Under the pieces are notes generated by a model. It had not been told where the DNA came from. It did not search any database and was given only the letters and a program-made list of their open reading frames with translations. Position numbers and translations under genes: made by a program. Shown here piece by piece: positions 61,322 to 63,162 of a DNA stretch of 64,000 bases (positions within the stretch are counted from its first letter, which is position 1; the number at the start of each line of letters is the position of its first letter). The stretch is from Serpentinimonas barnesii (lineage in GTDB: Bacteria > Pseudomonadota > Gammaproteobacteria > Burkholderiales > Burkholderiaceae_C), in NCBI RefSeq assembly GCF_000696225.1, contig NZ_BAWN01000033.1:1-64000 (forward strand). Direction: 5' to 3'.

Positions 61322-61966
61322 TCAGGGAATGCCCAGCCATTTGTGGGTTTGCACAGACAGGCGCCATTGCGGATGCGCCATGCAGTAGCCGATCGCCTGC
61401 TGGGTGTGCGCTTGGCGCAGCGGCCCATCCAGTGGCTGCAAAAAAAAGTGCGCAAAGTCCAGCCCCGCAAAGCGCTCGGGCGGGGCCTCGGTTTGCGGAT
61501 AGACCAGCTTGAGCTCGTTGCCGCGCTGCACGCGCAGCTCGGCGTCGGCCTTGGGGCTGACGCAAACCCAGTCCAACCCGTCGGGCAGCGCCAGCGTGCC
61601 GTTGGTCTCGACGGCGATCTCAAAGCCTTGGGCGTGCAGCGCCTCGATCAGGGCGGCGTCGAGCTGCAGCAGCGGCTCGCCGCCCGTGCACACCACCAGC
61701 GGCCGGCCCGCGTCGGCACCGCTGCCGCCGCCCCAGCAGGCGCGCACCGCCTGCGCCAGCGCCAGCGCGCTGGAAAACTTGCCGCCGCCGCTGCCGTCGG
61801 TGCCCACAAAATCGGTGTCGCAAAAGCGGCACTGGGCGCTGGCCCGGTCGGCCTCGCGGCCGCTCCAGAGGTTGCAGCCGGCAAAGCGGCAGAACACGGC
61901 GGCGCGCCCGCTCTGGGCGCCTTCGCCTTGCAGGGTGTAGAAAATTTCTTTGACGCTGTAGTTCAT
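61322..61966 (-). CDS. queE: 7-carboxy-7-deazaguanine synthase
   Basis: Radical SAM enzyme that contracts 6-carboxytetrahydropterin to 7-carboxy-7-deazaguanine on the way to queuosine, 214 residues. It starts VKEIFYTLQGEGAQSGRAAVFCRFAGCNLW. The cluster cysteines are Cys31 in FAGCNLW, then Cys46 and Cys49 in CRFCDTDF, with the unusual CX14CX2C spacing of QueE. VVCTGGEPLLQ and AVETNGT follow. It is the last gene of queC-queD-queE; 95 bp separate it from queD. Confidence 0.92.
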   Translation of the reverse strand: MNYSVKEIFYTLQGEGAQSGRAAVFCRFAGCNLWSGREADRASAQCRFCDTDFVGTDGSGGGKFSSALALAQAVRACWGGGSGADAGRPLVVCTGGEPLLQLDAALIEALHAQGFEIAVETNGTLALPDGLDWVCVSPKADAELRVQRGNELKLVYPQTEAPPERFAGLDFAHFFLQPLDGPLRQAHTQQAIGYCMAHPQWRLSVQTHKWLGIP

Positions 61967-62061: not shown

Positions 62062-63162
62062 TCAAATCAGGCCCGGGCCTAGGTCGGTGGCCATCACCAG
62101 CGCCCCGCAGCCGGGCGTCTGGTACAGATCGACCCGCTCCAAAGCCGCCAGCTCGCGCCGCCCTTGTTGCAAGATCCACCCAGCCAGGCTGGCGCAATCG
62201 CAATCGGGCAGGCCCGCCGCGGCCGCCAGCTCGTGCAAAGGCTGGTGGTCAAGGGCCTTGAACAGCGGGTCGAACAAGCGCTTGACGTCGCCAAAGTCGA
62301 GCACCCAGCCCTGCACCGCATCGAGCTCCCCGCCCAGCCCCAGGCGCAGCGTGTAGGTGTGCCCGTACAGGGCCGCCAGGGGGTGGTCAGGCGGGGCCTG
62401 GCGCAGCCGGCGCGCGCTGTCGAGCGTCAGGTCTTTCCAGATGCGGTAGCGCTGCCCGTCGAAGCTGGCCCCGCAGGAGGCGGTCTCGAACACCGTGACG
62501 CGGCTCAGACCGGGCAGGGCGGGCACAAGCTGCTGCCACAGCCACGCCGACAGCACCTCGCTGGTGGGGTTTTCCAGCCCCGCAAGGTCGTTCAGGCAGT
62601 GCCGGTGCAGGCGCTGGTGCAAGGGCGCCCAGGCGCGGTCGAGGCGGTCGGTGGCGTCCAGCTCATCAAACAACCCGTCTGGGCGGGCGTGCAGCAGCAC
62701 CTCGAAGCCGTGCCCGTGCATGCGACCGCACTTGTGGCCCGCCGGCACGCGCGGCAACTGGTGCGCGGCCTCGAAGCGGTAGCGCCGCCACGTGTGGGCG
62801 TGGCCGCTGGCGTCGAGCTCGCAACCGCTGCGCGGGGTGCTTTGCACCCCGATCTGGGCCAACTGCAAGCCCGCGCTGGCCAAGCGCTGCTGCAGCCAGC
62901 GCGCCAGCGCGGTGTCGTCGGGTTCGGGCAGGCAGTCGTTGAGCAGGCGGTGGTCCAGCGCCGCCGTCACACCCTCCAGATGCTGCTGCAACTGCTCCAC
63001 CTCGGTGCCGGCCACCGCCGCCCAGCCGGGCGCCAAGCGCGCGCGCAGCCTTGCATCGAAGCTGTGCCCATGCAGGCGCGCCTGCGGGTGCTGGGGCGGG
63101 CGGCGTTGCAGTTGCCGCGCGGCTTCGAAGCCGGCCTGGGCGCAGTGGTGCAGGTTCAGCAT
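62062..63162 (-). CDS. queD: Triple-domain 6-carboxytetrahydropterin synthase (QueD)
   Basis: 366-residue protein from the ATG at 63162, three times the usual ~120-residue QueD. Repeat 1 (~1-122) has HGHSF and LDHRLLND but Arg17 at the first zinc-His and no catalytic Cys. Repeat 2 (~126-236) has all three zinc His (134, 149, 151), Cys145 and Glu226, but HRHCLND where LDHRLLND is expected, so the Asp-His pair is absent. Repeat 3 (~237-366) has VLDFGDVKRLFDPL and LDHQPL (Asp305-His306) but only YGH for the zinc motif. Converts dihydroneopterin triphosphate for queuosine synthesis. It lies 14 bp after queC. Confidence 0.85.
   Translation of the reverse strand: MLNLHHCAQAGFEAARQLQRRPPQHPQARLHGHSFDARLRARLAPGWAAVAGTEVEQLQQHLEGVTAALDHRLLNDCLPEPDDTALARWLQQRLASAGLQLAQIGVQSTPRSGCELDASGHAHTWRRYRFEAAHQLPRVPAGHKCGRMHGHGFEVLLHARPDGLFDELDATDRLDRAWAPLHQRLHRHCLNDLAGLENPTSEVLSAWLWQQLVPALPGLSRVTVFETASCGASFDGQRYRIWKDLTLDSARRLRQAPPDHPLAALYGHTYTLRLGLGGELDAVQGWVLDFGDVKRLFDPLFKALDHQPLHELAAAAGLPDCDCASLAGWILQQGRRELAALERVDLYQTPGCGALVMATDLGPGLI

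Follow-up and report, generated by a model that had tools for sequence, protein, structure and literature searches.

How can an enzyme of the PTPS type work when three copies of its fold are joined in one polypeptide, and which copy then serves which? PTPS is a dimer of trimers in which each active site occupies a cavity between three adjacent monomers, giving six sites per hexamer (PMC7546909). The question is raised by the queD gene found between queC and queE in the window, the stretch of 64,000 nucleotides from Serpentinimonas barnesii analysed here:

62062..63162, (-) strand: queD, open reading frame from ATG, three tandem PTPS/QueD (T-fold) domains, 366 aa
63176..63961, (-) strand: queC, 13 bases upstream of queD (TIGR00364, 191.9 bits, cut-off 150.3)
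61322..61966, (-) strand: queE of the Cx14CxxC type, 95 bases downstream of queD (TIGR04508, 360 bits, cut-off 240)

Judged from its sequence, the 366-aa protein belongs to QueD, on the strength of its profile match, its signature and its context, but falls outside the single-domain subtype. PF01242, the sole Pfam family detected in it at E<=0.001, matches three times (66.8, 57.5 and 39.7 bits in the genome search, all above the curated cut-off of 22.4), bearing out the three tandem T-fold repeats described in an earlier note on this DNA. The QueD equivalog model TIGR03367 passes its cut-off over three stretches (117.6 bits versus 89.25) and the broader subfamily model TIGR00039 falls below its own (94.9 versus 125.5). 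The CxxxHGH signature of QueD (PTPS-I), as given in PMC5041015, is present in the second domain as Cys145-Gly-Arg-Met-His149-Gly-His151, and the queC/queE gene context of QueD is found in the window. The three domains are 29-34% identical to one another. A separate complete queD, which the earlier note had asked after, did not appear: the assembly (94 contigs, completeness 100%) yielded no second PF01242 match at E<=0.001. The same genome codes for Tgt (473.8 bits, cut-off 306.75) and, on another contig, for QueF (79.4 bits, cut-off 27.3), so later steps of the queuosine pathway, which modifies tRNA, are represented.

The domains and their diagnostic positions are the following, with counts referring to the distinct three-domain proteins ("triples") compared below:

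62806..63162, (-) strand: domain 1 (D1), residues 1-119; HGH 31-33 kept, no site Cys or Glu
63064..63072, (-) strand: D1 His31-Gly32-His33, the sole invariant D1 columns
62950..62955, (-) strand: D1 Asp70-His71, not conserved in the family (Asp-His 59/152, Asp-Tyr 75/152)
62452..62805, (-) strand: domain 2 (D2), residues 120-237; putative catalytic half A
62728..62730, (-) strand: Cys145 (E. coli QueD Cys27), in 152/152 triples
62602..62607, (-) strand: D2 His186-Arg187 at the position of E. coli QueD Asp70-His71; Asp-His kept in 25/152
62065..62451, (-) strand: domain 3 (D3), residues 238-366; putative half B, site Cys lost
62245..62250, (-) strand: D3 Asp305-His306 (E. coli QueD Asp70-His71), in 152/152 triples

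D2 features the zinc ligands His134, His149 and His151, Cys145, a PTSE motif (199-202) and Glu226. Alignment with E. coli QueD places His134, Cys145, His149, His151 and Glu226 at its positions 16, 27, 31, 33 and 110, and the residues named in the earlier note are all correct. No T-fold carries every catalytic residue, D2 being without Asp-His here and in 127 of the 152 triples. D3 holds Trp286, Asp289, Lys294, Phe297 and Asp305-His306. Of the zinc histidines D1 retains His31 and His33, with Arg16 in place of the third, and D3 retains His268 alone, Arg251 and Tyr266 replacing the other two. The claim that repeats 1 and 3 had lost the zinc set was thus too strong, as two of three histidines survive in D1 and one of three in D3. 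Loss of the Cys and retention of Asp70-His71 and Asp305-His306 were read correctly, to which loss of the Glu has to be added for both domains (Gln107-Ser108 at its position in D1, Gln348 in D3).

This division of residues is kept across the family. Removal of exact repeats from 155 rows left 152 distinct triples, every one of which has the His, Cys, His, His, Glu set (HCHHE) in D2 and Asp-His in D3; none lacks the D3 pair. Both remain complete when the collection is thinned at 95% (128/128), 80% (74/74) or 60% identity (30/30). The homologues therefore answer the conservation question of the earlier note in its favour, the D2/D3 split recurring in 152/152 triples, more than chance would give. 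The other two domains vary at the pair position. D2 has Asp-His in 25/152 triples and D1 in 59/152, the remaining D1 sequences having Asp-Tyr (75), Asn-Tyr (11) or other residues (7). The pair is found in D3 alone in 74/152 triples, and in all three domains in six. After thinning at 60% identity D3 alone has it in 24/30 triples and D1 in just 1/30.

D1 features a His-Gly-His in 152/152 triples. Its third zinc His is replaced in every one of them (by Arg in 73, Cys in 67, Leu in 8, Ala in 2 and Val in 2), and its site Glu is absent throughout (0/152). Close to the catalytic position, a Cys is seen in D1 of 3/152 triples and in D3 of 2/152. The anchor Glu of D3, replaced by Gln in the window protein, is present in 126/152 and the D3 His-Gly-His in 131/152.

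Single-domain relatives served as a control, 41 being compared after exclusion of 8 of 49 rows whose matched stretch was shorter than 90 residues (insertion or partial match). The HCHHE set is found in 28 of them, and all 28 have Asp-His in the same domain. The other 13 comprise one truncated protein and 12 with HSHHR, that is Ser for Cys and Arg for Glu. These twelve PTPS proteins (L012, L014, L016 to L025), encoded by genomes of the window's own family, are probably not QueD.

The 28 single-domain QueD have 37 invariant columns, which were scored as kept by D2 or D3 when conserved in at least 95% of 74 triples. D2 alone keeps 17 (including two zinc His, the Cys, PTSE and the Glu), D3 alone keeps 6 (Gly, Trp, Asp, Pro and Asp-His), both keep 6 (including the third zinc His) and neither keeps 8. 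A Cys beside the conserved Glu-Thr (residue 109 of the L204 stretch), invariant in 28/28 single-domain QueD, is missing from D1 and D2 and nearly missing from D3 (0 to 1% of 74). In the 74 representatives D1 is invariant only at His31, Gly32 and His33, D2 at 21 columns around the zinc ligands, Cys, PTSE and Glu, and D3 at Gly267, Trp286, Asp289, Lys294, Phe297, Asp305, His306 and Gly353. Mean pairwise identity is 0.40 in D1, 0.52 in D3 and 0.58 in D2; the contrast between D3 and D1 could partly reflect overall rate, which does not apply to that between D3 and D2.

Structure prediction with AlphaFold2 gave a pLDDT of 92.7 and a pTM of 0.90 with 26 sequences (87.6 and 0.86 with 11), and the three domains are confidently predicted to pack together. 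In the model short turns connect the last strand of D1 to the first of D2 (112-116 to 122-134) and the last strand of D2 to the first of D3 (230-234 to 239-251). Such strand-turn-strand joints fit the way in which N-terminal and C-terminal strands pair between PTPS subunits; this pairing in the PTPS barrel was reportedly described by Nar in 1994. In the 11-sequence model D2 superimposes on E. coli QueD 4ntk (Z 11.1, rmsd 1.9 A, 118 residues aligned), while two adjacent domains superimpose on uricase, D1-D2 (model residues 3-237) on 5yja (Z 11.4, rmsd 4.7 A, 215 aligned) and D2-D3 (121-360) on 7cmn (Z 11.0, rmsd 4.2 A, 214 aligned). Whole-chain comparison with Foldseek gave weak matches to uricases (TM-scores 0.19-0.42) and single QueD chains as top matches.

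We consider it likely, with a probability of about 0.8, that the 366-aa protein is the working QueD (6-carboxytetrahydropterin synthase) of this genome and functions as a covalent pseudo-trimer, the single active site of each chain being made by D2 and D3. The three T-folds, joined by short hairpin turns, would form a 12-stranded barrel within one chain, and two chains would stack to replace the ordinary QueD hexamer. One of the three possible sites per barrel would be retained. D2 would give the zinc, which it is expected to bind through its three histidines, the catalytic Cys145 and Glu226, which would anchor the pterin; D3, in contact with D2, would give Asp305-His306, the pair that comes from a neighbouring subunit in ordinary QueD; and D1 would fill the third place of the barrel with no catalytic residue set. 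The cost of fusion would be one site per chain instead of three. The arrangement recalls what Nar reportedly saw in 1994 in PTPS, where zinc, Cys and Glu are said to come from one subunit and His89 from a neighbour in the same trimer, and the intersubunit catalytic triad that Burgisser is said to have described in 1995.

The idea of a composite site per covalent trimer, put forward in the earlier note, is supported, since D2 and D3 between them have the residues that make up the site in ordinary QueD: Cys, zinc ligands, Glu and Asp-His. On conservation, the Asp-His neighbour of D2 would be D3 rather than D1. The part of the proposal that made D1 and D3 equal donors of the pair has to be given up, as the D3 pair is present in 152/152 triples and the D1 pair in 59/152. 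For the 25/152 triples whose D2 has an Asp-His of its own, the residues would also allow a site of the ordinary type. The invariant His-Gly-His of D1 falls outside the composite-site account. It is possible, though we hold it doubtful, that the domains have three separate jobs: D2 as metal, thiol and pterin anchor, D3 as acid-base pair and D1 with a new role at its His-Gly-His, for instance as a structural or regulatory metal site or as a ligand pocket controlling the catalytic site.

Three-domain QueD is no oddity of one genome: it occurs in Burkholderiales, in other orders of the class and in two families outside it. Three matches in one frame were found in 11/61 genomes (the window's own and 60 relatives). 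Re-search of 37 genomes of the order with at least two PF01242 matches found the triple gene in 36 (37 genes); G175 has two separate short frames and no triple. Three further genomes (G040, G050, G053) were covered by the search of the 60 relatives. These carrier counts in the order are lower bounds, as 15 two-match genomes were left out of the re-search (G047, G056, G095, G122, G139, G191, G202, G234, G257, G264, G265, G276, G299, G306 and G327). G137 has two triple genes (L134 and L135) about 53 kb apart, differing in the residue states of D1 and D2. A single-domain PTPS accompanies the triple in 1/47 carrier genomes (G050) and in none of the other 46.

A profile built from 26 triples found full-length matches (356-563 bits) in 19/369 genomes of the class, the window's own included, and in 14/398 genomes of the phylum, 11 of these 14 lying outside the class in two families. 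Its best match short of full length (153.5 bits) spans about one domain, and no two-domain intermediate is among the matches listed in the 369 and 398 genomes. A scan of named genomes turned up 353 relatives, of which the best 80 loci were retained; these 80 include records of Tepidimonas, Macromonas, Ideonella, Roseateles, Paucibacter, Pelomonas, Rhizobacter, Sphaerotilus and Rhodoferax. Two contigs, titled Pantoea sp. (L075) and Actinomycetales (L105), carry triples that share 59% and 56% identity with that of the window; they are possibly mislabelled or contaminating Burkholderiales DNA.

Among the 100 of 154 triple loci that have 2.5 kb on both sides, queE is found on the same strand within that distance in 93, queC in 30, at least one of them in 94 and neither in 6. 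No PLSDB plasmid record has a single match spanning 80% of the query; weaker matches occur in 102 records, of which the 15 listed resemble ordinary queD. No published account of a triple-domain QueD was found in the open-licence literature, which is weak evidence of novelty.

The history of the fusion was followed with two trees. A domain tree (152 rows: 37 each of D1, D2 and D3 plus 41 single domains; 119 columns) omits triples more than 60% identical to a kept one, and a full-chain tree of 74 omits those more than 80% identical. In the domain tree all D1 sequences group together, as do all D2 and all D3 sequences (supports 100/100, 83/87 and 100/100 for D1, D2 and D3), so the three-domain gene has a single origin that predates the split of the sampled lineages. 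D3 stands among the single-domain rows (weak support, 82/59) and D1 and D2 outside them. Triplication of a single gene and the joining of different QueD copies are both possible origins.

On the 74-chain tree, midpoint-rooted and built with the Asp-His columns included, presence of the pair requires no fewer than 13 changes in D2, of which well-supported branches force 6, and no fewer than 4 in D1 (3 forced), while in D3 there is no variation and hence no change. Asp-His in D1 is limited to 10 of the 74 chains, nested among mostly Asp-Tyr chains, so the D1 pair of the window lineage would most simply be a later, secondary gain that does not belong to the active site. Among the triples outside the class L197 stands apart from L193, L198, L199, L201 and L203 of one family on this tree; incomplete grouping of the triples L193-L203 by family suggests horizontal transfer. 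Selection is purifying in all three domains and strongest in D3, dN/dS in the three pairs formed by the three genomes of the genus being 0.12-0.14 in D3, 0.15-0.29 in D2 and 0.24-0.43 in D1.

Other readings of the pattern have to be set against these data. A relaxed, decaying gene with a complete queD elsewhere would account for the loss of two of three sites, but it is hardly credible for a genome with no other PF01242 match, per-domain dN/dS of 0.12-0.43 and residues invariant in 152/152 triples; it was rejected on these three grounds. The earlier note was thus right to set decay aside, and relaxed selection, which it had named as a possible refutation, is seen in no domain. The composite site might instead be made by D1 and D2, with Asp70-His71 reaching the zinc and Cys of D2. 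Asp70 is common in D1, the window protein has Asp-His there, and in bimodular QueF, which has no canonical ring, the helper module precedes the catalytic one (PMC5372742), opposite to the order of D2 and D3. This alternative is nonetheless very improbable, and D1 as partner was rejected on conservation, given a D1 pair in just 59/152 triples and in 1/30 at 60% identity, where 24/30 have the pair in D3 only.

It is also improbable that the protein is not a QueD at all and that a changed reaction or a scaffold role explains the pattern. The missed TIGR00039 cut-off (94.9 versus 125.5) and the lack in every domain (0 to 1% of 74 triples) of a Cys invariant in the 28 single-domain QueD would agree with such a change, and QueD activity of the triple is proposed from sequence. 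Against it stand the passed QueD equivalog cut-off, the neighbours queC and queE, the lack of an accompanying single-domain PTPS in 46/47 carrier genomes, and Tgt and QueF in the window's genome. Chances are about even that redundant sites decayed after fusion with no functional gain, a neutral ratchet (constructive neutral evolution) that concerns origin and is compatible with the pseudo-trimer explanation. The state of the D2 pair changed at least 13 times and takes many different residues, as under free drift once D3 serves the site, and in every pair compared it is D1 that shows the highest dN/dS (0.24-0.43). Invariance of the D1 His-Gly-His in 152/152 triples shows, on the other side, that some residues beyond the composite site are constrained as well.

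If the pseudo-trimer reading is right, the triple QueD is a natural experiment on intersubunit active sites: fused copies dropped what a neighbour supplies, and the residues surviving in each reveal which copy serves which. The intersubunit arrangement of Cys and Asp-His assumed for PTPS-type enzymes would become testable with single-chain mutants, since mutations in a single-chain triple hit one known site. The case is also a warning, as a domain-by-domain reading would label two of the three domains dead.

The triple resembles canonical QueD (E. coli, PDB 4ntk/4ntm) in its fold, the CxxxHGH signature, the zinc His, Cys and Glu of D2 and the queC/queE neighbourhood. It differs in that one domain of canonical QueD holds the whole set (28/28 single-domain proteins), whereas the triple spreads its residues over three domains. 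Uricase also has two covalent T-folds side by side and aligns with D1-D2 and with D2-D3; it catalyses another reaction, has two domains, is 3-10% identical in the rows listed and gives low Foldseek TM-scores. Uricase is not known to contain zinc.

Among known enzymes the closest parallel is bimodular QueF, which acts later in the same pathway. In V. cholerae and E. coli it has tandem T-folds in one chain and an interdomain site, and only one of its two modules retains the catalytic Cys (PMC5372742). The window genome's own QueF (L162) appears bimodular from its sequence, ESKSFKLY being seen by eye in the N-terminal half and Cys and Glu in the C-terminal half. The triple QueD is not a QueF-family sequence, and QueF differs from it in having two domains, in reducing a nitrile and in lacking the canonical ring, a barrel being expected for the triple. 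What the two have in common, as far as residues indicate, is a division of catalytic residues between fused T-folds, and queuosine synthesis would thereby gain a second such enzyme, after QueF, on the same path.
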